Below, piece by piece: positions 191-12,131 of a DNA stretch of 12,224 nt; positions within the stretch are counted from its first letter, which is position 1, and every line of letters begins with the position of its first letter. The notes beneath the pieces are model-generated. The model searched no databases and had not been told where the DNA came from. It worked only from the letters and a program-made list of their open reading frames with translations. This DNA comes from Candidatus Woesearchaeota archaeon (lineage in GTDB: Archaea; Nanobdellota; Nanobdellia; Woesearchaeales; J091). A program made the translations under genes and the position numbers. Where the stretch lies: contig RFJB01000041.1 in NCBI GenBank assembly GCA_003695045.1, forward strand, positions 1 through 12,224. The letters are read 5' to 3'.

Positions 191-814
191 CTACTGCCTC
201 TTCATCGGCACTCCGCCTGATGGGATTGCCTTTTTGGCGTTCTCCCAGATTTCATTCTTGAACCCTTTATTTTTTGTCCCTTCTTTTCCTTCCCTTACTA
301 CAAACTCACATGTCTGGCTCCCCATGGCAATGCACTGAACTTCCTCGCAAACGACATTCTTTATTCCTGTATGCTCTCTAATGAATGCACGCAGTCCTCC
401 GATGAGAAGGTAGTCAATACCTTTCTTCTGTATGCCAAACATTTTCTTGTATTCCCGTGCGAATGTTGATTCGGCAACAAACCTGAATTCTTTCTTCTCA
501 AAATCGCATTTGGTCATTCTTATCTTTCCTGCTCCTATCATCTCAACGTGTCCCAGCTGCATCTTCATGGCTTCGGCCTTCTTGTATCCGAACCTTTTTG
601 TCATCATTCTCGCAGCCATAGCGGTCTGGACCTCAAGAAAGCTTTCCATAATCTCCCTTCCCTTATCTTTCAGAGTGTCTTCAAGGGTCTTCTGGAGTAT
701 TACAAGAGCATTCAAAGAAAAAAGATATGCAGGAGTGTTCATGAGAGTTAATGAGCCGTCCTCTTCATACTTCAGCTTGTTTGCAAAAAGGACCTTTTTC
801 AGGAAAGGGTGCAT
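191..814 (-). CDS. V4R (4-vinyl reductase-type) domain sensor protein
   Basis: A soluble protein of 207 residues. Residues about 60-175 look like a V4R domain, a small-molecule or metal-binding fold found in regulators and in bacteriochlorophyll and phosphonate proteins. The signature is the cysteine cluster C156-x4-C161-x7-C169 within CEEVQCIAMGSQTCEF, with a further C103; these are plausible metal or cofactor ligands. The N-terminal 50 residues and the basic tail after 178 lie outside the core. ATG (812-814) shares one base with the TGA of the upstream KaiC-like gene, and GGGTGAGAG lies just before it, so the two are probably translationally coupled. It is the last gene of a three-gene operon. 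Likely role: ligand-sensing partner of the KaiC-like ATPase. The family assignment is fairly firm; the ligand is unknown. Confidence 0.8.
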   Translation of the reverse strand: MHPFLKKVLFANKLKYEEDGSLTLMNTPAYLFSLNALVILQKTLEDTLKDKGREIMESFLEVQTAMAARMMTKRFGYKKAEAMKMQLGHVEMIGAGKIRMTKCDFEKKEFRFVAESTFAREYKKMFGIQKKGIDYLLIGGLRAFIREHTGIKNVVCEEVQCIAMGSQTCEFVVREGKEGTKNKGFKNEIWENAKKAIPSGGVPMKRQ

Positions 815-1548
815 CAGCTCTCACCCAGTCCAGGATGAACGACAATTCCCTTATGCGTTATTTCCATGGGATGAATGTCAGGGTTGTTCCTGGTTTCGCG
901 CATCTTCCTTATCATGAGGCTTCTTGTGTACTGGCCTGCAATTGCCTCATACATGATGTAGATTATGCCGTCGCACACGAACTCGCTTACGCCGTCGCTT
1001 GATATCTGGCCGTCGACAGTTTGGGATATTATCAGGCTTGTGGTTTCTTTGAGCTGCCTGAGGTCATTTATGAAACCATAAACGAACTTCTTTACTGCCA
1101 TTTCAGTAAGTTCTGATGTCTTAAGATATGTTGTCGGAGTGTTTATTGCAAGAGAGCTTATGGAGTCAAGAACCAGACGCCTTATTTTTCCTTTCTTTGC
1201 CTTTCTTACTATGTCCTGCACTGTCCTCTCTGTTATGCTTTTTATCCCTATCTCCATAACTTCAAGAAGGCCTTTTTTTTCGAGTTCTTTGAAATCCCAC
1301 CCAAACTGCATTGCCTGATTTATCAGGGCATCCTTCTTTTCTTCCAAAGTGACATAAAGTCCTCTCTCTCCGAACTTTGAAGCACCATTGTAGAGGTATT
1401 CCATCGCGAATATGCTTTTTCCTGTGCCAGGAGTTCCGCTCAGCAGAATTATCTTGCCCTCTTTGAATCCACCTTCAATTAGTTCATCAAACCCTTTAAT
1501 GCCCGTTTTTATTATCACGCTCTCCATCTTCTTTTTCGTTCTTTTCAT
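814..1548 (-). CDS. KaiC-like RecA-superfamily ATPase (single domain)
   Basis: A protein of 244 residues, the length of a single-domain archaeal KaiC/RadA-like ATPase. Walker A is GTPGTGKS (38-45), the paired glutamates typical of KaiC are E69-E70 (YVTLEE), and Walker B is RRLVLDS with D128. The opening GIKGFDELIEGGF is the classic start of the KaiC domain. All residues needed for ATP binding and hydrolysis seem present, so activity is likely. In Archaea such proteins act as ATP-dependent signalling modules rather than clock parts. The start at 1548 is supported by the GGAGGT at 1554-1559, five bases upstream; an internal ATG at residue 8 is less well placed. It sits between an AbrB-like gene (32-base gap) and a V4R gene (one-base overlap), which suggests a stoichiometric partner set. 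Confidence 0.9.
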   Translation of the reverse strand: MKRTKKKMESVIIKTGIKGFDELIEGGFKEGKIILLSGTPGTGKSIFAMEYLYNGASKFGERGLYVTLEEKKDALINQAMQFGWDFKELEKKGLLEVMEIGIKSITERTVQDIVRKAKKGKIRRLVLDSISSLAINTPTTYLKTSELTEMAVKKFVYGFINDLRQLKETTSLIISQTVDGQISSDGVSEFVCDGIIYIMYEAIAGQYTRSLMIRKMRETRNNPDIHPMEITHKGIVVHPGLGES

Positions 1549-1553
1549 TCTCG

Positions 1554-1559
1554 ACCTCC
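1554..1559 (-). promoter_or_regulatory. Ribosome binding site GGAGGT deciding the KaiC-like start
   Basis: On the minus strand GGAGGT lies five bases before the ATG at 1546-1548. It favours that start over the in-frame ATG seven codons further in. Confidence 0.75.
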
Positions 1560-1580
1560 GTTTTGCGGATTTTTACATTA

Positions 1581-1877
1581 TCACATCTTCTCTACAATGT
1601 AGAGAAAGAGCGTGTTCTTCTTGGTGTCTATGCGCTGGCATTTTACCTTTGAGCCGGCATTCAGATGGGACCTCAACTCTTTGGGAATAAGGAAATATCT
1701 TGTGGCTCCATTTTGGCCGCGCTGGGCTATTCGCGATTTGGTTTCTGCAGCGTCCTCAGCAAAGACATACACCTTGTCCATGTGGCCCTTCAGGTTGAGG
1801 GCCTCTTCATATTCCATAAGAATCTCCATCACGACATGGTCACTGTCCTTTGCTACTGTACTTAATACAGTCCCCAT
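1581..1877 (-). CDS. AbrB/SpoVT-like small DNA-binding protein (putative)
   Basis: A protein of 98 residues. The C-terminal half, RGQNGATRYFLIPKELRSHL (53-72) followed by KVKCQRIDTKKNTLFLYIVEK, has the strand-turn-helix-strand pattern of a swapped-hairpin AbrB-type domain: 'YFLIPKELR' matches the usual IPKxLR core. The N-terminal half (1-50) is a separate acidic segment. I recall similar small proteins in DPANN-type genomes, but have not checked this. It is the first gene of the operon with the KaiC-like ATPase and V4R protein, so it may be the DNA-binding output or autoregulator of that set. The ATG start has a GAGAGGT-type site 10 bases upstream and a TATA-like box at 1900-1907. The fold assignment is moderate; DNA binding is inferred. 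Confidence 0.6.
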   Translation of the reverse strand: MGTVLSTVAKDSDHVVMEILMEYEEALNLKGHMDKVYVFAEDAAETKSRIAQRGQNGATRYFLIPKELRSHLNAGSKVKCQRIDTKKNTLFLYIVEKM

Positions 1878-1899
1878 AAAGATGCTTACCTCTCCTTTC

Positions 1900-1907
1900 T
1901 ATTTAAA
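1900..1907 (-). promoter_or_regulatory. TATA-like box for the AbrB-KaiC-V4R operon
   Basis: The minus strand reads TTTAAATA here, preceded by a purine-rich AAAAAAAG run that resembles an archaeal BRE. A start about 26 bases from the box centre would fall near 1878, at the ATG. That conflicts with use of the GAGGT site upstream of the ATG, so the actual transcript start may differ. Confidence 0.4.
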
Positions 1908-2074
1908 CTTTTTTTACGTCTTTTTAGTACTTTCTGACGATTTTTTACATCAAAACAACATTTCTTGTCTTTTTTGCCCTTTTGGTTCCTCATAAAAACA
2001 GGTTCTTCTCCAATTTCGTTACTACATCTTCTTTTATGTTTAGTTGTTATAGTAACCTTTTGTCTGCTTATTCA

Positions 2075-2082
2075 TTTTATAT
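2075..2082 (+). promoter_or_regulatory. TATA-like box for the PAS-kinase operon
   Basis: TTTTATAT lies with its centre about 26 bases before the GTG at 2105. If used, transcription would begin at or beside that start codon, giving a leaderless mRNA, which fits the lack of any ribosome binding site there. A second AT-rich stretch (AATAATTATA, 2091-2100) could instead serve the ATG at 2126. Confidence 0.4.
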
Positions 2083-2104
2083 GTAAACCAAATAATTATA
2101 ACCT

Positions 2105-3481
2105 GTGCTTAAGAAGTTTTTCCCGATGCCCGGGAAAAAGCAAAGACCTGCCAAAAAAAGAGGTGCGCAGAAGCAGAAACGGATTTCAAACACCCAGTCG
2201 GAGCCCTCCGATGAGTTGTATCAAGAGCTTCTCCAAGCATACAAGAACGCTTCCCCTGCAGCCATGTTCATTCTGGACAAATACACCTTTACAGACATAA
2301 ACAGGGAAGCGCTCTCTCTTTTCTCATGCGCAAAGGATGACATTCTCGGAAAGCACCCCTGGGATATCTCGCCTCCTAAACAGCCGGACGGAACATCATC
2401 CCTCAGGAAGGCAAAAGCGCACATTGATGCCGCACTCTCAGGCAAACCGCAGATGTTTGAATGGGTTCACAGGAGAAAAGACGGCACTGACTTCACTGCT
2501 CTGGTCCGCCTCAGGAGGGCGAAAATCAGCGGAAAAGTCAAGGTCTTTGCCTCAGTCCAGGATCTCAGCGATATCGTTCGCACACGCGAAGAACTCCGCA
2601 TCCTCTGGAGCGCGGTGAGAAACAGCAAATTATCATTCCTGATAACAGACGCCGACGAGAAGATAATCTACGCGAATCCATTTGCCTCCAAACTGACCGG
2701 CTATTCAAAATCCGAGATTCTCGGCAGCACGCCGAGAATATTCAAGAGCGGGCTGACTCCCAGGGAAACATACGAAGAAATGTGGTCAACCCTCAGGAAG
2801 GGAAGGTCATGGCACGGCGTTTTCATAAACAGGAAAAAGAGCGGAAAATTGTTCTATGAGGATGCTGTTATCATACCTGTTCTGTCCAAAGAAGGAACCC
2901 TTACTCATTATGTTGCTTTGAAACAGGACATAACGCCAAGAATTCTTCTTCAGAAGAAAATAGAAAAGAATCAAAAGCTCCTTGAGTCGTATCTTGAGCT
3001 CATCCCCCTAATGGTTGTTGTCCTTGACAGAAAGGGAAAAATAAGGTTTCTCAACAAGGCGGGCGGCGAAATCCTCAAAGCGAACCCCGCCGAATGCATT
3101 GGAAAGGACTGGTTTTCTCTCTTTATACCAAAGAACGAAAGGGCGGAACTGAAGCGGTACTTCAAACAGCTTCTTTCACAATCCGGCGCGGACCACGACA
3201 GGGTTCTCTCTCATGAAAATCCGGTGCTGACGACAACAGGAGAGAAACGGATGATAAGATGGAACAACCGCCTCTGGTTTGACGAGGGCGAACTGAAAAG
3301 GATTATTGCCGTAGGCGAGGACATAACAGGAAAGAAGCGCGCGGAGGAGGAACTCAGGAAACGCTATGAGGAACTTGAGGTCTTCAAGAAGGTCTCGGTT
3401 GAGCGCGAACTCAAGATGATATCACTCGAGAAGGAGATTGAGAAACTCAGGAAGAAACTCAGCAGAAAAGGCAGGCGGTGA
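2105..3481 (+). CDS. Triple-PAS sensor protein with C-terminal coiled coil, no kinase domain
   Basis: A cytoplasmic protein of 458 residues. After a basic N-terminal tail it carries three PAS-type sensory domains at about 38-158, 164-282 and 292-410. Each closes with the usual strand plus D-[IL] linker (SVQDLSDI, ALKQDITPR, VGEDITGKK). Residues 408-455 form a charged coiled coil containing VERELKMISLEKEIEKL, a tail often seen at the end of PAS proteins. No HisKA, HATPase, GGDEF or other output domain follows. It therefore probably works by protein contact, most likely with the kinase encoded seven bases downstream. The start is uncertain: GTG 2105 directly follows an in-frame TAA and suits a leaderless transcript, while ATG 2126 is the alternative. 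Ligand unknown. Confidence 0.85.
   Translation: MLKKFFPMPGKKQRPAKKRGAQKQKRISNTQSEPSDELYQELLQAYKNASPAAMFILDKYTFTDINREALSLFSCAKDDILGKHPWDISPPKQPDGTSSLRKAKAHIDAALSGKPQMFEWVHRRKDGTDFTALVRLRRAKISGKVKVFASVQDLSDIVRTREELRILWSAVRNSKLSFLITDADEKIIYANPFASKLTGYSKSEILGSTPRIFKSGLTPRETYEEMWSTLRKGRSWHGVFINRKKSGKLFYEDAVIIPVLSKEGTLTHYVALKQDITPRILLQKKIEKNQKLLESYLELIPLMVVVLDRKGKIRFLNKAGGEILKANPAECIGKDWFSLFIPKNERAELKRYFKQLLSQSGADHDRVLSHENPVLTTTGEKRMIRWNNRLWFDEGELKRIIAVGEDITGKKRAEEELRKRYEELEVFKKVSVERELKMISLEKEIEKLRKKLSRKGRR
3474..3481 (+). promoter_or_regulatory. Ribosome binding site GGCGGTGA for the histidine kinase
   Basis: GGCGGTGA overlaps the stop codon of the PAS gene and lies seven bases before the kinase ATG at 3489, which ties the two genes together in translation. 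Confidence 0.6.
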
Positions 3482-3488
3482 ATGACAA

Positions 3489-6056
3489 ATGTTTGCTCCG
3501 AACTGGTATATGATTCTGGCGTTTCACATAGTCCTCTTTGACTTTTACTTCATATACCTCCTCATGCGCTCGGACGTGAAGAAGCGCGAGAAATCATTCC
3601 TTCTTGCGGCAACTGTCATGATAATACTCTGGCAGTCAGCCAAGGCAGCATCTCTCTCATTTTCAGACGCGGCAGGCGCGCTTGCCTTAGCAAAGCTTTC
3701 CAAGATTCCGCCCCTGTTCATGGTGGCATTCGTTCTTCTCTTCGTGAGAGAGCACATTGGAAAGAAGAATTCATCATTGCATGAAAGCATTTTTTACTCT
3801 CTTGCAGGCATAATGTCACTTGTTGCAGCTTTCACTGACGGGGTGGTTTCCCCTCCTGTCCAATTTATGGCATGGGGCAGTTATCCTTCGTCCGGCGCTC
3901 TTTCCCCTGCCTACGCGCTTCTGCTGATTTTCTTCTTCGGAGCATCGCTGCTTGAACTCTTGCGCGCCTATCTCAGGTCGTCGGGCGCCGAAAAAAAACG
4001 GCTGAAACGCCTGTTCCTCTTTCTGCTAACCTCTTCTTCCCTTGGATTGATTACCGATACCCTGCTTCCGCTTGCGGGGTATCCCGTGCCGCCGCTTGGC
4101 GGCCTTATGTCTTCCCTCTTTTTGGGAGGCGTTGTCCTGCTCATCTCAAACACAGGACTTTCAGAGCATTCAAAACCGGCCCACCTTTCGGACGCGTTCA
4201 TCGCGTCATCCCTCATCGCATTCTTCGTGCTCTCTCTTACCACTCTGAGCGCTACCGCGCACTATCAGGGAAAAACCGCAAGGCAAATGCTTTCCTCAGT
4301 TCACAACTTTGAGTTTTCGCTTGTCGAGAACAACCTGCGATGGCACACCCAGGAGTTTTCTGAATACCTTGAACAGGTCCGTCTCAATAAGAACATTGAA
4401 GAGCTGCAGGTTCCGTCTTCAAGAGGACACCTTCTGTTAAGAATAACCCACTCTGAAGAGGACTTCCTTTCTGCTACCGACTGCTATTTTGAGCAGCCCC
4501 CCTCTGATTCGGAAAAGCGGGCGGAATACTTTTTTTCATGGGCGCACTGCTCCGGCTCAAATGAGTTTGTTCTCGCATCGCTTGTCGGGAAGAATGGCGG
4601 CGGCGAAATCTACGCTTTCTTCCCCTTTGACGCGACCGGCCTCATAAACAGGGAACTTCAAAACACGACCTTCCGAAACTGGGTTTCACTATCACTCTTC
4701 CTTCCAAAAGCAGAAATCTCCGTCCGGAGAAACGGAACCTTTGCGCCGGTGCCCTTTGCCGGGCATGATGTCCCGTGCCGGCAGGAATTTCTGGAAAGGG
4801 CTTCTGACCACGGCTTAGGCATAATAATCTCCAGAAAATTCATTCCTGAATTCTCTGCGTGCGTTGAAGTGGCGACTCCTCTTGATGTTTATTATTCTTT
4901 CTCTTCCGAGTGGTACCGGACATACGCCTTTGTTTCGTCCGCAGTCCTCGTTATTCTTGCGGCACTCTCCGTATTTGTAGCGCGTAGAATCTCCAGACCC
5001 CTCCCCGGAATTCTTGACACTCTGGCTTCGTTCGCTTCCGGCAATTTCGGCGTGAGAATGCCTGTCAAAGGCGTCTATGAGTTCCGGATGTTTGCTTCCA
5101 GTTTCAACAAAATGGCGAGGGATGTGGAAGACATTTACCGCGAACTTGAATCATACAGAGGAACTCTTGAAAAGAAGGTTGAGCAGAAGACGAGGCAGCT
5201 CAAGAAGAAAGTGCTTGAAGCCCAGCAGTCCAGCCAGGCGGTGCTTCATGTCCTCAAAGATGTTCTTAAGGCAAGGGAGGAGCTGAAGAAAAGCCAGAAG
5301 AAGCTCCTCATAGCAAACAGGCAGTTGAAAGCGCTCGACAAGAAGAAAGGCGAATTCATGAACATTGCAGCCCACGAACTCAAAACGCCGTTGATTCCCA
5401 TAGTCGCATACACAGAAATAATCCTCAAAAGCTCAAAACTCACTCCCGAGGACAGGCACCGGCTTGAAATAGTGCTCTCCAGCGCCAAACGGCTTCAGCG
5501 CCTCGTCCAGGACGTTCTTGACATAAACAAGCTTGAATCAGGAATCATGAAATTCAAGATGGAGCCGTTTGACATTGCCTCAGAGATACGCAAGATTGCC
5601 GAGGGATACGAGCCGGATATAACGGCAAAAGGCGTCAAGCTTATAAAGCACATTCCCTCTAAGCCAATTATGGTTATGGGGGACTACCAACGCCTTAACC
5701 AGGTTTTCGCGAACCTCCTGGACAACGCGTACAAGTTCACAGAGAAGGGCAGCATAACTGTTCGCGTAACCAGGGAGAAGAAAAAAGTGTGGGTGTATGT
5801 CAAGGACACGGGAATGGGCATATCAAAGGAGGACCAGAGCAAAGTGTTCACAAAGTTCTTCCAGGCGGACACCTCGCTGAGAAGAAAGCAGGGCGGCACA
5901 GGACTCGGTCTTTCAATCTGCAGGAACATAGTGAGGCACCACGGAGGCGACATCTACTTTTCATCCACGCTTGGAAAAGGAACAACTTTCTATTACTTCG
6001 TCCCCGTGTTAAGGAGGGATTCAAATGCCGAAAAAGAAGGAAATACTGGTAGTTGA
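3489..6056 (+). CDS. Membrane histidine kinase: 7TM region, extracytoplasmic sensor, HAMP, HisKA, HATPase
   Basis: A protein of 855 residues that autophosphorylates on histidine. The N-terminal part (about 7-221) has seven hydrophobic segments, like the 7TM input region of some archaeal and bacterial kinases. An eighth segment (236-254) leads into an external domain of about 220 residues (255-476), then a ninth (477-498). A HAMP-like linker (499-550) and long coiled coil (550-620) follow. The HisKA H-box is MNIAAHELKTPLIP, with phosphoacceptor H629. The ATPase domain has the N box NLLDNAYKF (N742, N746), G1 DTGMGI (773-778), F box around 787-792 and G2 GGTGLGLSI (802-810). All catalytic motifs are intact. 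Its 3' end overlaps the response regulator by 32 bases, so the two are cognate. The combination of two membrane input modules in one chain is unusual. Confidence 0.92.
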   Translation: MFAPNWYMILAFHIVLFDFYFIYLLMRSDVKKREKSFLLAATVMIILWQSAKAASLSFSDAAGALALAKLSKIPPLFMVAFVLLFVREHIGKKNSSLHESIFYSLAGIMSLVAAFTDGVVSPPVQFMAWGSYPSSGALSPAYALLLIFFFGASLLELLRAYLRSSGAEKKRLKRLFLFLLTSSSLGLITDTLLPLAGYPVPPLGGLMSSLFLGGVVLLISNTGLSEHSKPAHLSDAFIASSLIAFFVLSLTTLSATAHYQGKTARQMLSSVHNFEFSLVENNLRWHTQEFSEYLEQVRLNKNIEELQVPSSRGHLLLRITHSEEDFLSATDCYFEQPPSDSEKRAEYFFSWAHCSGSNEFVLASLVGKNGGGEIYAFFPFDATGLINRELQNTTFRNWVSLSLFLPKAEISVRRNGTFAPVPFAGHDVPCRQEFLERASDHGLGIIISRKFIPEFSACVEVATPLDVYYSFSSEWYRTYAFVSSAVLVILAALSVFVARRISRPLPGILDTLASFASGNFGVRMPVKGVYEFRMFASSFNKMARDVEDIYRELESYRGTLEKKVEQKTRQLKKKVLEAQQSSQAVLHVLKDVLKAREELKKSQKKLLIANRQLKALDKKKGEFMNIAAHELKTPLIPIVAYTEIILKSSKLTPEDRHRLEIVLSSAKRLQRLVQDVLDINKLESGIMKFKMEPFDIASEIRKIAEGYEPDITAKGVKLIKHIPSKPIMVMGDYQRLNQVFANLLDNAYKFTEKGSITVRVTREKKKVWVYVKDTGMGISKEDQSKVFTKFFQADTSLRRKQGGTGLGLSICRNIVRHHGGDIYFSSTLGKGTTFYYFVPVLRRDSNAEKEGNTGS
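6012..6017 (+). promoter_or_regulatory. Ribosome binding site AGGAGG inside the kinase gene
   Basis: AGGAGG lies seven bases before the ATG at 6025 and within the last codons of the kinase. It confirms the response regulator start despite the 32-base overlap. Confidence 0.75.
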
Positions 6057-6396
6057 TGACGAGCCAATAACTGTCGAGCTGCTTGAGGACATCCTCTCTC
6101 ATGCCGGCTTCTCAGTGAGGAAGGCATACAACGGAAAGGAATGCCTTTCTGCTGTCAAGAAGAAGATGCCAGACCTCATACTGCTGGACATAATGATGCC
6201 CGACATGTCCGGCTGGGATGTTTTCACGCGTCTTCAGCAGGAATATAAGGACAAGGTGAAGGTAATCTTTGTGAGCGCCATAGAGGTCTCGCAGGAACGC
6301 CTTGAAGCGCTGAAGAATCACGGGCTGAAGGACTACATAACAAAGCCGTTTGAGCCGGACGACCTTCTTCAGCGCGTCCAAAAAGCGCTTGAATGA
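6025..6396 (+). CDS. Single-domain response regulator (receiver only)
   Basis: A CheY-like receiver of 123 residues with no output domain. Acidic pocket residues D11 and D12 (VVDDEP), phosphoacceptor D55 (LILLDIMMPD), S84 (FVSA) and K107 (TKPF) are all in place, so it should accept phosphate from the adjacent kinase. As the chain ends with the receiver fold, signalling must go through a partner protein. The nearest candidates are the P-loop-less KaiC-like protein 22 bases downstream and the two KaiC-like ATPases in flanking operons. The start is fixed by AGGAGG at 6012-6017. Confidence 0.93.
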   Translation: MPKKKEILVVDDEPITVELLEDILSHAGFSVRKAYNGKECLSAVKKKMPDLILLDIMMPDMSGWDVFTRLQQEYKDKVKVIFVSAIEVSQERLEALKNHGLKDYITKPFEPDDLLQRVQKALE

Positions 6397-6407
6397 CTGG
6401 CATTGAA

Positions 6408-6412
6408 AGGTG
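6408..6412 (+). promoter_or_regulatory. Ribosome binding site AGGTG selecting ATG 6419
   Basis: AGGTG lies six bases before ATG 6419. The earlier in-frame GTG at 6410 overlaps this site itself and has no ribosome binding site of its own, so the ATG is preferred. Confidence 0.6.
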
Positions 6413-6418
6413 TGCCGT

Positions 6419-6979
6419 ATGGATGTGTGCGAAAAACTAAAGGGTTTGGGCGAAAATTACTCAGCCCTGATTGTGACGCCCATATCTCTTCTAAAGGATG
6501 AACTGCTCCATGTCGTGCGCAAAGCGACAGGCACAGGACTTCCGATACTCCTTCTTACCCTTAACAAGCCGCAGGAGGCGCTTGACGAGCAGTTCAGGGC
6601 AGAGGGCATTGACACTTCAAAAATCCTTTATGTTGACTGCATCGCCAAGTCCCTTGGCACGGTAACAAGAAAGAAGAACGTGATTCACATAGAGCACGCA
6701 TCAGACCTGACTTCCATAAACATCGCGGTCTCGGAATTTATTGAGAAGATAAAAACCGAAAAGTTCATCATAATTGATGCGCTCGCAACCCTCCTCATCT
6801 ACAATTCAGAAGACATGGTGGTAAAGTTTGTAAGGTCTGTCGTGCAGTCGGCAAGGGGCTCGCGGTTAATCTGCTTCACCCCCAGCGCGAAGGGCTTGTC
6901 TTTCATAGAGAAGATAAGCGTTTATTTTGACGAGGTTGTCGACCTGTCGGCTGAAGAGAATGCTTCTCAGAGCAGATAG
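6419..6979 (+). CDS. KaiC/RecA-like protein lacking a P-loop (putative signalling partner)
   Basis: A protein of 186 residues. It has the alternating strand and helix pattern of a RecA-like core: ALIVTP (16-21), PILLLTLNKPQEAL (42-55), the GIDTSKILYVDCI segment (63-75), then EKFIIIDALATLLIYN (114-129), whose hhhhD (D120) resembles Walker B, then SRLICFTPS. There is no Walker A GxxxxGK[ST] and the KaiC glutamate pair is replaced by LNKP. It is therefore probably unable to hydrolyse ATP. The 'TLNKP..L...GID.SKI..VDC' pattern resembles inactivated KaiC-like proteins I associate with archaeal two-component genes. It is the last gene of the kinase operon (22-base gap), so it may be the receiver's target. 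Its end overlaps the opposite-strand KaiC-like gene by 13 bases. Confidence 0.65.
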   Translation: MDVCEKLKGLGENYSALIVTPISLLKDELLHVVRKATGTGLPILLLTLNKPQEALDEQFRAEGIDTSKILYVDCIAKSLGTVTRKKNVIHIEHASDLTSINIAVSEFIEKIKTEKFIIIDALATLLIYNSEDMVVKFVRSVVQSARGSRLICFTPSAKGLSFIEKISVYFDEVVDLSAEENASQSR

Positions 6980-7698
6980 TTTATCTTGTGATACGGCTCC
7001 TGGTTTGGATAGACCTTCATTCCCTCCTTGCTTATGGTGATGCTTCTTATTGACTTCGAGTGGTCAATTCCGCGCATCTTGATTACCGCAACAGCCCTCT
7101 CAAATGTGTTGTCAAAGGGTATTCTGTAAAGCATTATGACGCCGTCAACCGCGAACTCCTCGAAGCCGTAGCGCGAGAGTTTTTTAGAGCCCTCCTCCAC
7201 CTCGCAGGTCATTATTGTTGTGCACCCCATGTTGCTGAGCAGTGATGAGAGCCGCGCAAGAGCGTCTCTTCGTTCAACATCATTGTCAAGCAGCATGGTA
7301 AAAAGGTTGACCGAGTCAAGAACAACCCTCTTTGCCTTCATCTCCGAAACGACTTCTCTTATCTCGTCAATTATGTCGTCTGCGGTTGCTTTTGTCTTCA
7401 ACTGGGCTCTCTTTACCTTTCCGATAGGCCCGCCTATGAGGCGGAACTTCCCCGTCTTTTTCAGCTCGTCAATGTGGATTCCCATTTCATAAAGGTCTTC
7501 CTTGAGCTTGTCTTCATCTTCCTCAAATGAGATGTAAAGCCCCGGCTCGTTCTTTTTCACTCCTTCCCTGATGAACTGAGCGCAAAAGGTTGTTTTTCCG
7601 GTGCCGCAGCTTCCCGAAAGAAGAACAGTTCTTCTGTAAGGTATTCCTCCGTTGAGAAGAACGTCCATGCCGGGCACTCCTGTGCTTATCTGCTTCAT
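6967..7698 (-). CDS. KaiC-like RecA-superfamily ATPase (second copy)
   Basis: A single-domain protein of 243 residues. It opens with ISTGVPGMDVLLNGGIP, the KaiC-domain start, then Walker A GSCGTGKT (29-36), the glutamate pair E59-E60 (YISFEE) and Walker B KRVVLDSV (D128). All ATPase residues are present. It is clearly a different paralogue from the copy at 814-1548: the Walker A loop differs (SC against TP) and the stretch 85-110 is basic here (GPIGKVKRAQLKTK). Its ATG overlaps the stop of the rhomboid gene by four bases (ATGA, 7695-7698), indicating translational coupling with a membrane protease. Probable role: an ATP-dependent signalling switch linked to the rhomboid and, by location, to the kinase operon. 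Confidence 0.9.
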   Translation of the reverse strand: MKQISTGVPGMDVLLNGGIPYRRTVLLSGSCGTGKTTFCAQFIREGVKKNEPGLYISFEEDEDKLKEDLYEMGIHIDELKKTGKFRLIGGPIGKVKRAQLKTKATADDIIDEIREVVSEMKAKRVVLDSVNLFTMLLDNDVERRDALARLSSLLSNMGCTTIMTCEVEEGSKKLSRYGFEEFAVDGVIMLYRIPFDNTFERAVAVIKMRGIDHSKSIRSITISKEGMKVYPNQEPYHKINYLL

Positions 7699-8291
7699 TC
7701 TTCCACCCTCTGCTGAAGTATTCTCTTCTTCCGTTTAAATTTTTTGCTTATTCCAAAGAATGCGAGACCTGACACGAATCCCGAGAAGTGGAATGCCAGT
7801 TCTGCATTCGCAAGGTCGCCTGCTCTGCCGTTGGCAACATCCGACGCATACTTTACGATGATGGGAACCAGCAGCACAGGGATGAGTATGTATTCGTCTA
7901 TATAGCGCCTGCCTTCTATCGACAGAAGACCGAGCAGGGCGGCAATTCCCACAGAGGCGCCTGCCATCATTATCCACGGGAACAGCGGCGATTCCAGAAG
8001 CGCCACGACGAGCGAGCCGGCCATGAAGCATGCAAAGAACTTCCACCCCTTCAGTTCAAGCTCGAGCGCAAACAGCGCGACGAGAGCAAGCGCAACCATG
8101 TTCTCCCACAGGTGCGCTTTCGTTACATGGGTGAATTCAAATGTGAAGAGCCGGTGGACTTCCCCGCTCATAAGCTTCTCTGCAGAATATGACAATCTCT
8201 CAAGCCCGTTGCCGACTGCGAAGAATACGATGACCGACGCGGTTATAATGAAAACTGCACTCGCCACTATGGCAATTTTATCCTTATCCAA
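7695..8291 (-). CDS. Rhomboid-family intramembrane serine protease
   Basis: A protein of 198 residues with six hydrophobic segments (about 6-26, 62-78, 82-100, 108-124, 134-148, 165-182), the minimal rhomboid core. Hallmarks in order: GEVHRLFTFEFTHVTKAH in the loop after TM1, H60-x3-N64 (HLWEN) in TM2, the serine motif GASVG with S113 in TM4, and H168 (AFHFSGFVSG) in TM6. The usual motif is GxSG, so V replaces the glycine right after the serine. The Ser-His dyad is kept, so activity is possible but not assured. It ends with a basic tail. The TTG start is supported by GAGGTG at 8297-8302, five bases upstream. It lies between a 49-residue single-TM gene and a KaiC-like ATPase; substrate unknown. 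Confidence 0.82.
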   Translation of the reverse strand: MDKDKIAIVASAVFIITASVIVFFAVGNGLERLSYSAEKLMSGEVHRLFTFEFTHVTKAHLWENMVALALVALFALELELKGWKFFACFMAGSLVVALLESPLFPWIMMAGASVGIAALLGLLSIEGRRYIDEYILIPVLLVPIIVKYASDVANGRAGDLANAELAFHFSGFVSGLAFFGISKKFKRKKRILQQRVEE

Positions 8292-8296
8292 GCGCG

Positions 8297-8302
8297 CACC
8301 TC
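8297..8302 (-). promoter_or_regulatory. Ribosome binding site GAGGTG for a TTG start
   Basis: The minus strand reads GAGGTG, then CGCGC, then TTG (8289-8291). This close match to the archaeal anti-SD supports TTG as the rhomboid start codon. Confidence 0.7.
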
Positions 8303-8318
8303 TTTTTCAGGGTTTTCC

Positions 8319-8468
8319 TTATTCTTCATCCAGATATCTCTTTATTCTGTCCTGCCTCAGTATGCTTTTCCTTATCTTTTTTTTCAGAAATTTGAGGTAT
8401 ACTATGAGCCCTGCAACTATTGCCGCGAACCCTATTCCAACTCCCTGCCACGCCTGTTCTGCTGCCAT
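8319..8468 (-). CDS. Small single-TM protein, 49 residues (unknown function)
   Basis: ATG at 8466-8468 reads through to TAA at 8319-8321. The protein starts MAAEQAWQGVGIGF, continues with a hydrophobic helix at about 9-25 (GVGIGFAAIVAGLIVYL), then a strongly basic amphipathic stretch (KFLKKKIRKS) and ends RYLDEE. By the positive-inside rule the C-terminus should be cytoplasmic. An AAGGA-type site lies five bases upstream. The frame is well formed, with a TM helix plus charged tail, and sits 27 bases before the rhomboid start on the same strand. I do not recognise a family. It could be a rhomboid partner or regulator, or a membrane anchor for the KaiC-like ATPase; neither is shown. Confidence 0.65.
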   Translation of the reverse strand: MAAEQAWQGVGIGFAAIVAGLIVYLKFLKKKIRKSILRQDRIKRYLDEE

Positions 8469-8544
8469 TTTTCCTTTTTTATTTCTTCAGCATTTCTTTC
8501 CTGCCATTGTAAACTCTGCGCTGCTCTGAATTCCTTTCTTCCGT

Positions 8545-8562
8545 AATTTTGTTAACAAAATT
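8545..8562. promoter_or_regulatory. Perfect 18-bp palindrome, candidate operator
   Basis: AATTTTGTTAACAAAATT is identical to its reverse complement over all 18 bases. Its centre lies about 86 bases from both divergent start codons (8468 minus, 8640 plus), so it is central to the control region. The AT-rich two-fold symmetry is typical of a dimeric regulator such as the Lrp/AsnC protein encoded at 8960-9508, but that pairing is inferred. Confidence 0.55.
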
Positions 8563-8607
8563 TGTTCTTATCCTAATCATTTGTTGAGTATTTTCAAGTA
8601 GTAAAAC

Positions 8608-8613
8608 TTTTAT
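8608..8613 (+). promoter_or_regulatory. TATA box giving a leaderless transcript for the 89-aa gene
   Basis: TTTATA within ACTTTTATAGG is centred about 27 to 30 bases before ATG 8640. There is no ribosome binding site between it and the ATG (CACCACTCTAAAATG), so transcription probably starts at or within a few bases of the start codon. Confidence 0.55.
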
Positions 8614-8639
8614 AGGGGTGCCTTTTCCACCACTCTAAA

Positions 8640-8909
8640 ATGGTTCCACTGAAACCTCTCACAAAAGCGCACATACAGAGGTTGCTCTCCAGCAACAACC
8701 CCCGGCAACTCCTTCAGGAGTTCCATCTGAAGGGCTTCTGGATTGAGGACTTTCTCATTGAGGTCCTCAACGGCGAGATTCCCTGTCCTGAGGGCTTGAC
8801 TTTTGAGGATGTAACATTCGGAAAGGAGGCCTTGAAGGCATTCTCTCTTTCCAATGTCACCCTGTTTTTCAAAAAAACCGGGGACGGAAGCTACGCTCCC
8901 TGGCCCTGA
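8640..8909 (+). CDS. Small soluble protein of 89 residues (unknown function)
   Basis: Starts MVPLKPLTKAHIQRLL and ends GDGSYAPWP. It appears mixed helical in the first 45 residues (LLSSNNPRQLLQEFHLKGFW) and strand-rich later (FEDVTF, FSLSNVTLFF). One cysteine (C49), no membrane segment, no recognised domain. The clean TATA box at the right leaderless distance supports it as a real gene in preference to the longer opposite-strand frame that overlaps it. It converges on the Lrp/AsnC gene with a 50-base gap and shares the palindrome-bearing control region with the small-TM/rhomboid/KaiC operon. Function unknown. Confidence 0.65.
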   Translation: MVPLKPLTKAHIQRLLSSNNPRQLLQEFHLKGFWIEDFLIEVLNGEIPCPEGLTFEDVTFGKEALKAFSLSNVTLFFKKTGDGSYAPWP

Positions 8910-8959
8910 GCATTGATGAACCCTGAACAGGGCTGACAGCTGATTTGCGGGGCTTTTGT

Positions 8960-9508
8960 TCAACCCTCTATCCTTTTTCTGAACCGCTCTATCTCCAAAA
9001 ACTGCGCCTTGTACTTCTTGCCGTCTTTCCTGTTGAGTATTTCCTTTATGAGCTCTGTCGGGTCGTTCTTCACAAGCCCGATGTGCGAGCATACATGAAT
9101 CTTCTTTATGTCCACTGAGTCGTCGGGCATTCTGTGAAAGTAGTTTGTCAACTCGTCAAGGTCCTCAAAGCCGTATATTATTATGTGGGTTATGTCTCCG
9201 CTCGGAACTCTGAAGATGTTGATTACATGCGGGTTCCGCGTAAGGTTTTCCTCTGCCTCAAGAAATCCCTTCTGCATTCCCTCTCTGGAAAGAACCGCTG
9301 TTGCGATGGCAAATGACTTTATTCCCAGCCGCTCGTAATCAATGTTTACTTTGTAACCCTTTATTATGCCCTCCTTTTCCAGCTTCCGCCTTATCTTTCC
9401 CACTGCCTGTTTTGTTATTTTCAATTTTGAGGCAATTTCTGTGTCCGTTATTCTGCCGTTTTCAAGAAGAAGCATCAGGGTTTTGCGGTCGTTTTTTGTC
9501 AGTTGCAT
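8960..9508 (-). CDS. Lrp/AsnC-family transcription regulator
   Basis: A protein of 182 residues, slightly longer than the usual 150. The winged helix-turn-helix occupies about 4-50: LTKNDRKTLMLLLENGRITDTEIA is followed by the recognition helix in ITKQAVGKIRRKLEKEGIIKGY. The C-terminal RAM-like alpha/beta domain (about 65-145) should bind a small effector and drive oligomerisation. A charged tail of about 35 residues (KDGKKYKAQFLEIERFRKRIEG) extends beyond the RAM core and is less usual. The ATG start at 9506-9508 has only a weak AAAGG upstream, with a TATA box at 9534-9541, so a nearly leaderless mRNA is likely. Autoregulation is common in this family; its other targets are unknown. Confidence 0.88.
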   Translation of the reverse strand: MQLTKNDRKTLMLLLENGRITDTEIASKLKITKQAVGKIRRKLEKEGIIKGYKVNIDYERLGIKSFAIATAVLSREGMQKGFLEAEENLTRNPHVINIFRVPSGDITHIIIYGFEDLDELTNYFHRMPDDSVDIKKIHVCSHIGLVKNDPTELIKEILNRKDGKKYKAQFLEIERFRKRIEG

Positions 9509-9609: not shown

Positions 9610-9755
9610 ACTGGTATATCTTTCTGTATACTAATCCCTCTATTGCACAATTGACTATTCCCACCACATCGCACAACCGACACACAACTGATACACCTGT
9701 GCAACTCATACCCCCATACGATACAGCCGAGGTGGAACATACTGAGGTGGAACCT
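9610..9755 (+). promoter_or_regulatory. Long G-poor leader with duplicated ribosome binding site
   Basis: Between the predicted transcript start and ATG 9756 the plus strand is rich in A and C and nearly free of G over about 9652-9728, so it should be unstructured. It ends in two copies of GAGGTGGAAC (9729-9738 and 9744-9753). The second copy places GAGGTGG five bases before the ATG. The first copy is 15 bases upstream of the second and has no start codon at a matching distance. Confidence 0.5.
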
Positions 9756-10715
9756 ATGAACAAGCCCTTCATGGTCGCGAACAAGACATTCACGGTTGCC
9801 GTGTTGCTCTCGCTCTTCATGTTCTCTGCGGGCATCTTCCTGGAGATGCCCCTCTCTTCCCTTCCTGCGAGGGGGGAGCAGATAAACACTTCTGCCTCGG
9901 TCCAGAATTCCCCGCCCGTGGCAAGCAGCCCCGTAATCAACGGAGGCAACGACATAACCCTGACAGAAGGAACCACAACAGAAGTGCTTGGCACAGTCAC
10001 AGTCACTGACGACAACGGCTGCACGGAAATACAGACAGTGGACGCTGTCCTATACAGGGAAGGCGTCGGCGAGATAGCGGGGGACGATGAAAACAACCAC
10101 TACTCGGCAACATGCGTCGGGAACAACGACTGCATCAACTCAAGCGATCTGGACCAGACATTCAACTGCACATTTAACATGTGGTATTACGCAGACCCGA
10201 CTGATGTCGGCTCCATATATGAAAGCGAGGTATGGATCTTCAAGGTAACGCCCTCAGATGTCGATACGGGCACTCCCGCGAACACAAGTGTGGAAGTCAA
10301 TACCCTGACAGCAATAGAGATAAGCCCGCTTACGATAGATTACGGCGCCCTTGCTCTCGGCGCAGACACGGGCGCATTCAACGAAGTCCTTACCATAAAC
10401 AACACCGGCAACGAAGGTGTTGATGTTTCTGTGGACGGATACGGCTCCGTGGACGGAGACGGATACGCAATGGTCTGCACTGTCGGGGCAATACCCCTTT
10501 CATACGAGCAGTATTCTGCCTCGCCGTTCGCATACGGTGCCGGAACAGCGCTGACCGATACAGCAGCAGACGTTAACCTTAACATTGCGCAGAGAACAAC
10601 AACACCCACAACAGCAGACCTCTACTGGGGATTCGGAATGCCCGCAAGCGGGGTCAGCGGTTCGTGCTCCGGCGTGGTTAACATTCTCGCAGTCAGCGAC
10701 CCGCAATTGCGATAA
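9756..10715 (+). CDS. Exported beta-rich surface protein with six cysteines
   Basis: Starting at ATG 9756, the protein has 319 residues; an in-frame TTG at 9651 would add 35 implausible residues, while ATG 9756 has GAGGTGG five bases upstream. Residues 11-30 form a hydrophobic signal peptide or anchor. The mature part is low in lysine and rich in T, S, D, N and G. A first domain (about 50-182) opens with NSPPVASSPVINGGNDITLT, Ig/cadherin-like in style, and has four cysteines (C89, C120, C126, C138). A second (about 187-312) has two (C241, C304), which suggests disulfides within each domain. Sequons such as N128-S-S and N137-C-T would allow N-glycosylation. No catalytic motif is seen. Probably a cell-surface or secreted structural protein; exact family not recognised. 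Confidence 0.75.
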   Translation: MNKPFMVANKTFTVAVLLSLFMFSAGIFLEMPLSSLPARGEQINTSASVQNSPPVASSPVINGGNDITLTEGTTTEVLGTVTVTDDNGCTEIQTVDAVLYREGVGEIAGDDENNHYSATCVGNNDCINSSDLDQTFNCTFNMWYYADPTDVGSIYESEVWIFKVTPSDVDTGTPANTSVEVNTLTAIEISPLTIDYGALALGADTGAFNEVLTINNTGNEGVDVSVDGYGSVDGDGYAMVCTVGAIPLSYEQYSASPFAYGAGTALTDTAADVNLNIAQRTTTPTTADLYWGFGMPASGVSGSCSGVVNILAVSDPQLR

Positions 10716-10736
10716 AACGTTGAAGGTGCAAAGCAG

Positions 10737-12023
10737 GTGGAGCAACACTCAAAAAGAATTTTTTCTCTTCGTTTTCTCTTTTTTCTATCTGTCTCCCTCC
10801 TCTATTCTTTGCCAATTGTTTTCTCGTCAAGCTTTGGAGCCAGCCCCGGAAGGATAGAGATAGACAACGCGCTCCGCGGCTCGGTAATTGAAAAGACCGT
10901 TACCTTCAGCAGCTCCACAATAAGCGACCCTGTCATGTATTCCCTCTCGTATTCCGGCCGGATAGCCGACTGGATAAAGTCAAAGCAGGGGGATATGGCA
11001 ACCAATATGATAACCATAAGCCCCGACACCTACCGGACTGAAGCAACCTTCGTGTTTTCGGTTCCGCCTGATGTTCCCAACGGCGTCTACACAGGCAGGA
11101 TTACCGCTTCATACGCTGGCTCCGGCGGAAACTCCGACTCAGGGGGCTCCGTCTCATCGGTGAGCGCCGGCGCCGCCATTCTTGTCACAATACATGTTAC
11201 AGGAGACCAGAACATTGACTTTGATGTAATCAAGGTTTCAATACCTGACAGCGAGGAGGAAAGCGAAGCCAGAATCATTATGGATGTCCGCAACAAAGGC
11301 AACATTGCGGCGAGTCCTGACAAGATAATTCTGAAGATTCAGGAGAAATTCGCGAGAACAACGCTGAAAGAGATAGTTGTTGACTCTTTTGAAGATTTGC
11401 TGCCTCCTTTCTCGCGGGGGGACATTGTCGCAACCTTTAATCCGGGGCTTCCGCCAGACAGGTACTGGGCTGAAATCAGCGTTTATTCAGAAGGAAAAGT
11501 CGTTCATCAGGATTCAATACCATTTACCATTCTTCCAAAAGGCGCATTAAAGAGGGACGTGAAACTCCTCAAGCTTCAGGCCGATTCAGAGGCAGAATAC
11601 GGATTCCCTCTCAAGATTGTTGCTTACCTGAAGAATGCGGGCGAGACCATGACCGGCTGCGTTCTCAAGGCAGAAATCCGCAGACCAGAAGAGCCGGACA
11701 TACTTCTCGCAGCACTGGAAAGCGACAGGGTAATGGTAAATGCAGGAGAGATGAAGCAGCTCGCTGTTTATTTCGCTCCGCGCATGACAGGGCTCCACGA
11801 GGCAACAGCGTTTGTGAGATGCGACGGGGTTGACAGTGAAACGCGCAGCGCATCATTCAATGTTGCCAGCAGGTATGCCTCTCTTTCAACACCTGCCATT
11901 GGCGGAGGCCTGCTCTTCTTCATACTGCTGATAGTCCTGCTGAGGAAGCGCCCAAAGCAGGACCCAAGTATCATCCCGAAGCATGACCCGCAACAGAACT
12001 CGCAGCAGGGCTTGTTGAAGTAG
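10737..12023 (+). CDS. Exported membrane-anchored surface protein with Ig-like/CARDB-like domains
   Basis: A protein of 428 residues. A basic N-terminus and hydrophobic stretch (about 9-30) form the signal peptide, with GASPGRIEI just after. The ectodomain has a first beta-rich part (about 38-155, GRIEIDNALRGSVIEKTVTF and onward), a G/S-rich linker (127-145), a second part (about 160-266, with RNKGN typical of CARDB-like domains) and a third (about 273-375, LKNAGETMTG). A TM helix (387-402) is followed by the stop-transfer RKRPKQ and a Q-rich cytoplasmic tail. Start GTG 10737 has GAAGGTG eight bases upstream, 21 bases after the preceding stop. It is probably co-transcribed with its neighbour. 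The TAG stop lies inside a 27-base tandem repeat. Family assignment is by general architecture only. Confidence 0.78.
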   Translation: MEQHSKRIFSLRFLFFLSVSLLYSLPIVFSSSFGASPGRIEIDNALRGSVIEKTVTFSSSTISDPVMYSLSYSGRIADWIKSKQGDMATNMITISPDTYRTEATFVFSVPPDVPNGVYTGRITASYAGSGGNSDSGGSVSSVSAGAAILVTIHVTGDQNIDFDVIKVSIPDSEEESEARIIMDVRNKGNIAASPDKIILKIQEKFARTTLKEIVVDSFEDLLPPFSRGDIVATFNPGLPPDRYWAEISVYSEGKVVHQDSIPFTILPKGALKRDVKLLKLQADSEAEYGFPLKIVAYLKNAGETMTGCVLKAEIRRPEEPDILLAALESDRVMVNAGEMKQLAVYFAPRMTGLHEATAFVRCDGVDSETRSASFNVASRYASLSTPAIGGGLLFFILLIVLLRKRPKQDPSIIPKHDPQQNSQQGLLK

Positions 12024-12047
12024 AACTCGCAGCAGGGCTTGTTGAAG
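11994..12047 (+). repeat. 27-base tandem direct repeat carrying the stop codon
   Basis: Two 27-base (nine-codon) units, 11994-12020 and 12021-12047, are identical except at their first base: the first begins CAG and the second TAG. The repeat encodes Q-N-S-Q-Q-G-L-L-K. The base change C to T creates the stop codon at 12021-12023. A third CAG (12048) begins the next partial unit. Confidence 0.85.
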
Positions 12048-12131
12048 CAGCGCTTGGGCGCGGCTTTCCGTCTTATGAAATATGTCGTGGAATCTGCACA
12101 GACGAAATATGCGCAGCCCGAAAATGAATGA
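12024..12131 (+). other. In-frame extension beyond the TAG stop
   Basis: After TAG 12021-12023 the frame stays open for 35 codons to TGA at 12129-12131, beginning NSQQGLLKQRLGAAF. It reads as a former C-terminal tail cut off by the CAG to TAG change, or as a readthrough product. It overlaps the start of the next predicted gene. Confidence 0.35.

Follow-up and report, generated by a model that had tools for sequence, protein, structure and literature searches.

What would a two-component operon that ends in a KaiC-like protein without a P-loop be doing between two operons that each hold a KaiC-family ATPase? The question is raised by a locus of a Woesearchaeales archaeon, and the window analysed here is one entire contig of 12,224 bp (RFJB01000041.1; G000:C78) from a genome assembly of 1.06 Mb that is 84% complete. 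On this 12.2-kb contig three separately conserved modules meet: module A, made of a protein of 98 amino acids (aa), the ATPase KaiC1 and a V4R-type protein; a kinase operon, in which a stand-alone receiver is followed by an inactivated KaiC (iKaiC); and module R, made of a small transmembrane (TM) protein, a rhomboid and the ATPase KaiC2. The arrangement is real and conserved, the adjacency of receiver and iKaiC is inherited along the iKaiC tree, and the modules cluster more than expected, the link of the kinase operon to its two flanking KaiC operons being recurrent but optional.

Open reading frame (ORF) and family searches place ten genes in three sets, on the minus, plus and minus strands; expectation values are given as E.

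191..814, minus strand: V4R-type sensor protein of 207 aa, module A (PF02830, E 4.2e-6)
814..1548, minus strand: KaiC1, KaiC-family ATPase, module A (PF06745, E 3.8e-58; Walker A motif GTPGTGKS intact)
1581..1877, minus strand: conserved 98-aa protein, module A (fold unassigned by any match; family in 54 of 287 genomes)
1878..2104, no strand: divergent intergenic region of 227 bp separating module A from the kinase operon (ORF coordinates)
2105..3481, plus strand: PAS protein with three PAS stretches, kinase domain not found (PAS-family matches)
3489..6056, plus strand: membrane histidine kinase with a seven-TM-type N-terminus, HAMP, HisKA and HATPase (Pfam, hydropathy)
6025..6396, plus strand: receiver-only response regulator with Asp11/Asp12, Asp55, Ser84 and Lys107 (PF00072, E 3.6e-31; alignment)
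6410..6979, plus strand: iKaiC, KaiC fold without P-loop, DUF7504/DUF835-like (family match, predicted fold)
6967..7698, minus strand: KaiC2, KaiC-family ATPase, module R (PF06745, E 9.7e-64; Walker A motif GSCGTGKT)
7695..8291, minus strand: predicted rhomboid intramembrane serine protease, TTG start, Ser113 and His168 (PF01694, E 2.3e-10)
8319..8468, minus strand: 49-aa single-TM protein with a Gly/Ala-rich TM segment, a basic tail (predicted cytosolic) and a basic stretch ending -hLR (alignment A2)

Within each set, neighbouring genes overlap or stand at most about 30 bp apart, the V4R and KaiC1 genes sharing 1 nt and the kinase and receiver genes 32 nt. The iKaiC and KaiC2 genes converge, their 3' ends overlapping by 13 nt, and the common 227-bp gap separates the divergent 98-aa and PAS genes. 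All ten genes lie where a preliminary description, made from the letters of this DNA alone, had put them. The same holds for its intact KaiC-like ATPase in each minus-strand operon, both having a Walker A motif and a PF06745 score above the cut-off, and for the P-loop-less KaiC-like protein between them, by its predicted fold and the absence of Walker A from its relatives.

From these genes, their conserved residues and the conservation and co-localisation of the modules, we infer the physical contacts, the direction in which the signal travels and the substrate of the protease in a membrane signalling island running from receiver to iKaiC to KaiC rings, with a rhomboid under KaiC2 control; the scheme is tentative, and as a whole we would place it somewhat below an even chance. 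More precisely, the seven-TM/HAMP histidine kinase, aided by the PAS protein, would phosphorylate the stand-alone receiver, and the phospho-receiver would bind, or otherwise act on, the neighbouring iKaiC, which may serve as an adaptor without hydrolysis of its own, inserting into intact KaiC rings or capping them. KaiC1, with the V4R and 98-aa proteins, would add a soluble ligand input. KaiC2 would be tethered at the membrane through the basic tails of the rhomboid and of the 49-aa protein, and its ATP state would decide whether the rhomboid cuts or releases the latter.

The receiver–iKaiC pairing

The step from receiver to iKaiC is the best-supported part of this mechanism. The AlphaFold2 model of the window iKaiC shows a confident KaiC/RecA fold (predicted local distance difference test, pLDDT, 93.2), and its best Protein Data Bank (PDB) matches by Foldseek are PH0284, ArlH/FlaH and KaiC (entries 2dr3 and 4yds, and KaiC). 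DUF7504 is the sole Pfam family above cut-off (29.4 bits against 27); it is matched by 15, and DUF835 by 14, of 22 aligned relatives (E<=0.01). The Walker A motif is absent from all 157 distinct ORFs that score higher with the iKaiC than with the KaiC profile. The family is present in 117 of the 287 genomes of the order (profile A1). Two of its members, P0042 (293 aa) and P0070 (288 aa), are extended at the C-terminus by a stretch in which hydrophobic segments can be seen by eye, and some iKaiCs may be membrane-bound. Seven iKaiC proteins from metagenome contigs (P0068, P0072, P0074, P0079, P0082, P0086 and P0105) share 47-53% identity with that of the window.

The neighbourhood sample comprises 141 fetched loci, annotated with profiles built iteratively from the window proteins; iKaiC occurs in 123 of them, giving 155 distinct iKaiC genes (L numbers below denote loci, G numbers genomes). 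Of these 155 genes, 33 have a same-strand receiver gene no more than 100 bp away, upstream in 25 cases, and 60 have one at a distance of up to 5 kb. Because receivers are sparse genome-wide (any in 209 of the 287 genomes, mostly between one and ten), only a few percent of iKaiC genes would, by our estimate, be expected to have one within 5 kb. Besides, 31 of the 36 receiver–iKaiC pairs, defined by a distance of at most 150 bp, have a histidine kinase no farther than 8 kb away. The residues of phosphorylation are kept in the alignment columns of 32 of the 35 full-length adjacent receivers, including that of the window, where the acidic pair Asp11/12, the phosphoacceptor Asp55, Ser84 and Lys107 are all present.

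Mapped onto the iKaiC tree, adjacency to a receiver requires 14 changes, whereas 200 shuffles of the label needed 32.7 on average and never fewer than 28; the adjacency is inherited along the tree. The window iKaiC clusters with four others (support 0.756), all receiver-adjacent, from L032, L183, L187 and L195. The order PAS–kinase–receiver–iKaiC recurs in L183, L187 and L195, with a PAS–kinase gap of 1.3 kb in L183, and L032 has kinase–receiver–iKaiC, cut off by the contig end. In the window kinase, PF00672, PF00512 and PF02518 are all above cut-off; its N-terminus has seven hydropathy segments and scores 28.5 bits with PF16927, against a cut-off of 28.6.

The rhomboid–KaiC2 module and its small membrane protein

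Relatives of the window rhomboid occur in 24 of the 287 genomes, the window included, and of the 26 matches beyond that of the window, 21 had their neighbourhoods covered, the weaker ones in G036, G114, G184, G255 and G220 being left out. A KaiC gene follows the rhomboid in 14 of these 21 and not in the other seven; in L104 the small TM gene stands between the two. This small gene is clear in 13 of the 14 KaiC-linked units, the remaining one (L117, G068) having a weak hit (E 1.8e-4) that falls within a longer ORF, and strong matches to it (E 3e-14 or better) stand only beside KaiC-linked rhomboids in the 15 module-bearing genomes searched. Across the phylum, a match is found in 9 of 194 genomes, and three of these lie beyond the order. 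Two of the three, L238 and L239 (genomes G318 and G361, of another order), carry small TM protein, rhomboid and KaiC genes with a divergent iKaiC about 1.2 kb off, the KaiC of L239 having its P-loop; the locus of the third, G337 (E 4.7e-4), holds no match to the families sought.

In a tree of 117 KaiC domains, those linked to rhomboids form one clade of 17 with support 1.0. KaiC2 scores 215.3 bits with PF06745, against a cut-off of 26.6. Identity with the circadian clock KaiC was considered for KaiC1 and KaiC2 and set aside, each having a single domain and lying far under the TIGR02655 cut-off (102.2 and 117.1 bits against 546.25). By its profile score (PF01694, 41.3 bits against 22.6) and its Ser/His dyad, the window rhomboid is predicted to be an active protease; the catalytic Ser and His, Ser113 and His168 in the window, are invariant in 16 aligned linked rhomboids (alignment A3). 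A rhombosortase was rejected: TIGR03902 is the best NCBIfam match of the protein, but at 46.8 bits against a cut-off of 84.

The 49-aa protein has no Pfam match. After the TM segment, the small TM proteins carry a basic stretch of roughly K-x-[KR]-h-[KR]-[KR]-x-[VI]-L-R; across 15 sequences (alignment A2), one K of this stretch and the L and R that close it never vary. A strict motif, [KR][KR]?x[VIL]LR, was counted anywhere in the small TM proteins, of which 16 of 18 have it; elsewhere it was counted in the last 24 residues only, and there it occurs in 7 of 18 linked rhomboids, none of 7 unlinked ones and none of 526 other annotated ORFs, against 1.4% of shuffled tails. A looser form of the motif is found in 11 of the 18, none of the 7 and 5 of the 526, respectively. 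That the basic tail would be a common docking tail for KaiC2 is suggestive only, since the related proteins are not independent.

In excerpts of the cited articles, the rhomboid AarA activates the small TM protein TatA (PMC3712462) and rhomboids are given a recognition motif (PMC2941825). Module R likewise pairs a rhomboid with a short membrane protein that has a short stretch before its TM segment; it differs from AarA–TatA in forming one gene set with a KaiC. That the rhomboid might cut the 49-aa protein is a guess modelled on this pair. The small protein may instead be a membrane anchor or scaffold that keeps the KaiC2 ring beside the rhomboid and is no substrate at all, a reading to which we give close to an even chance: conservation is strongest in the basic tail, with its invariant K, L and R, and not in the outer part or the TM segment, whereas the small TM residues, together with a rhomboid whose Ser and His are intact, fit a substrate of the pro-TatA kind, as far as the excerpts describe it (PMC3712462, PMC2941825).

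Beyond the small TM gene, the window holds an Lrp/AsnC-like regulator (8960-9508) adjoining the rhomboid module, and related regulators lie near other iKaiC loci. Between the small TM and Lrp genes, an 89-aa ORF (8640-8909, plus strand) without Pfam match may or may not be a gene. Two further ORFs, of 354 aa (9651-10715) and 428 aa (10737-12023), have no Pfam match above cut-off and are probably secreted or surface proteins, as judged by eye.

Module A and the co-localisation of the three modules

The 98-aa family has 69 matches in 54 of the 287 genomes of the order, and of its 29 top-scoring loci other than the window, 25 show the 98-aa gene followed immediately by a KaiC. At 17 of these 29 a V4R-type gene stands by that KaiC, within flanks of only 1.5 kb, several of the V4R calls at fetched loci being weak (23-49 bits) and uncertain. 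Relatives of the window V4R protein are present in 28 of the 287 genomes, that of the window included; the protein itself scores 27.2 bits with PF02830, just under the cut-off of 31, and its relative in L098 scores 42.7 bits. KaiC1 reaches 197 bits with PF06745 (cut-off 26.6), and among 26 KaiCs of module A the P-loop is absent in one (L123); the KaiC of L124 has one. The 98-aa genes often come as divergent pairs of which one only leads into a KaiC (L128, L130, L132, L133, L144 and others).

The preliminary description had called the 98-aa protein AbrB-like. No support for this label emerged: none of 26 family members matches any AbrB Pfam model (E<=1), no PDB sequence is matched at E<=5, and a low-confidence AlphaFold2 model (pLDDT 69.4) gave no Foldseek match at E<=0.001, with the caveat that a swapped dimer could escape single-chain prediction. 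The DNA-binding arm that had been attributed to the locus rested on the same unsupported label.

Do the modules then belong together? The distance from the 98-aa gene to iKaiC was followed in 31 of the 53 genomes with a 98-aa gene, namely those with an iKaiC place among the matches listed: it is at most 11 kb in 13 of the 31 (2.8% expected per genome), 10 kb in 11 (2.6%), 5 kb in 7 (1.3%) and 2 kb likewise in 7 (0.5%). In the same line, 4 of 16 rhomboid modules whose discovery did not depend on an iKaiC query have an iKaiC within 10 kb, against an expectation of about 3% (P 0.001), and a 98-aa gene stands near 3 of the 14 rhomboid modules of the order (P 0.0025). These probabilities come from hand-estimated densities and from distance limits set after looking, the test being repeated at other limits, and related loci are not independent samples; with these provisos, the modules cluster more than expected. 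L108 shows the same tail-to-tail KaiC2 and iKaiC as the window, and iKaiC, receiver and module A occur together in L219, L178, L208 and L163.

The fullest combination is found in Altiarchaeales (L098, QMZJ01000009.1), where genes for a small TM protein, rhomboid, KaiC2, second KaiC, UbiA, V4R, iKaiC, FIST and HAMP proteins follow one another on one strand in an apparent operon. It was found with the iKaiC query and is hence outside the clustering counts. The UbiA prenyltransferase (8493-9395) and the FIST-domain protein (10602-12128) of L098 are set among the KaiC, V4R, iKaiC and HAMP genes.

Several observations weigh against the proposed island. The four closest kinase operons (L032, L183, L187 and L195) have no KaiC in their fetched flanks, the longer of which measures 3.3 to 8.3 kb; their genomes (G032, G131, G274 and G160) are not among the 24 of 287 that are rhomboid-positive, and the 98-aa gene of G032 is on another contig. 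A KaiC lies within 8 kb of only 11 of the 36 receiver–iKaiC pairs, or 9 of the 13 pairs with full 8-kb flanks on both sides, and within 8 kb of the 155 iKaiC genes a rhomboid is found for 3, a 98-aa gene for 14 and a V4R gene for 16. No fusion of receiver and iKaiC was found among the annotated ORFs. Finally, only 7 of the 18 linked rhomboids bear the strict tail motif, and that of the window has the basic cluster without it. By these counts the coupling would be optional, or would act on KaiCs elsewhere in the genome.

The same counts could mean that the kinase, receiver and iKaiC are self-contained and that the KaiC operons lie nearby as signalling genes cluster, with no shared pathway. This alternative, which we regard as rather doubtful, draws on the KaiC-free surroundings of the closest kinase operons, on the occurrence of each module alone in many genomes and on the rarity of rhomboids near iKaiC. 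It has to contend with the iKaiC beside the small TM–rhomboid–KaiC genes of L238 and L239 in another order, with the apparent operon of L098, and with the 4 of 16 rhomboid modules near an iKaiC, a hand-estimated excess at a post hoc limit. The multi-part relay proposed in the preliminary description is accordingly supported by the recurrent receiver–iKaiC adjacency and the co-localisation of the modules, but not as a fixed coupling, with a rhomboid within 8 kb of only 3 of 155 iKaiC genes. Its expectation of conserved co-occurrence is likewise borne out in part: a KaiC is present within 5 kb of 71 of the 155 iKaiC genes, but beside none of the four nearest kinase operons. Kinase operons of relatives without KaiC operons were one half of what it had named as signs of chance proximity, and this half is what the fetched flanks of those four operons show.

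Relation to known systems

It is quite improbable that module R serves membrane-protein quality control, with KaiC2 providing ATP-driven handling of proteins cut or recruited by the rhomboid: KaiC-family rings have, to our knowledge, no unfoldase role, and the small TM gene and the nearby V4R, PAS and iKaiC genes point to regulation. The resemblance behind this reading lies in the consistent KaiC–rhomboid pairing and the basic rhomboid tail, which recall the ATPase-partnered rhomboids described in excerpts of the cited articles, YqgP with FtsH (PMC7231995) and RHBDL4, which works with p97 through a short VCP-binding motif (PMC5725882). Rhomboid and ATPase are thus common to all three, whereas p97 and FtsH are AAA proteins and the partner in module R is a KaiC.

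Archaeal KaiC-family proteins are reportedly signalling hubs, as put forward by Makarova, Galperin and Koonin in 2017. The locus resembles such hubs in its proposed use of KaiC ATPases for signalling and of iKaiC as an output, to which it adds a KaiC clade tied to a rhomboid and a tiny TM protein. The hub idea and the iKaiC output domains are both found in the part of Galperin et al. 2018 considered here (PMC5847659), Table 2 of which contains iKaiC-REC and REC-DUF835 response regulators. Receiver and P-loop-less KaiC are common to these and to the window, but are fused there and encoded by two adjacent genes here. Within the limited collection of literature searched, no rhomboid–KaiC module was found, the papers naming both KaiC and rhomboid being unrelated by title, nor was any paper on KaiC, Woesearchaeota and signal transduction; the words archaea, KaiC and operon are absent from the main text of a 2025 rhomboid review (PMC12615303). 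The finding is partly new in this sense: KaiC, iKaiC, receivers and iKaiC outputs are known, and the partner set of rhomboid and small TM protein was not found described.

As a broader proposal, small-genome archaea (Woesearchaeales and another order of their class) and Altiarchaeales may have a KaiC-gated intramembrane protease, in which a membrane-held KaiC ring would control a rhomboid acting on a dedicated TM protein of 40-60 aa, with a two-component switch through an iKaiC adaptor in some genomes; in this general form we consider it unlikely. The recurrence of iKaiC as receiver partner in one archaeal order makes the question of output testable with two small soluble proteins. If the proposal is true, the unit of rhomboid, KaiC and small TM protein would give small-genome archaea an intramembrane protease under ATPase control, whose candidate substrate is encoded within the rhomboid–KaiC gene set itself.

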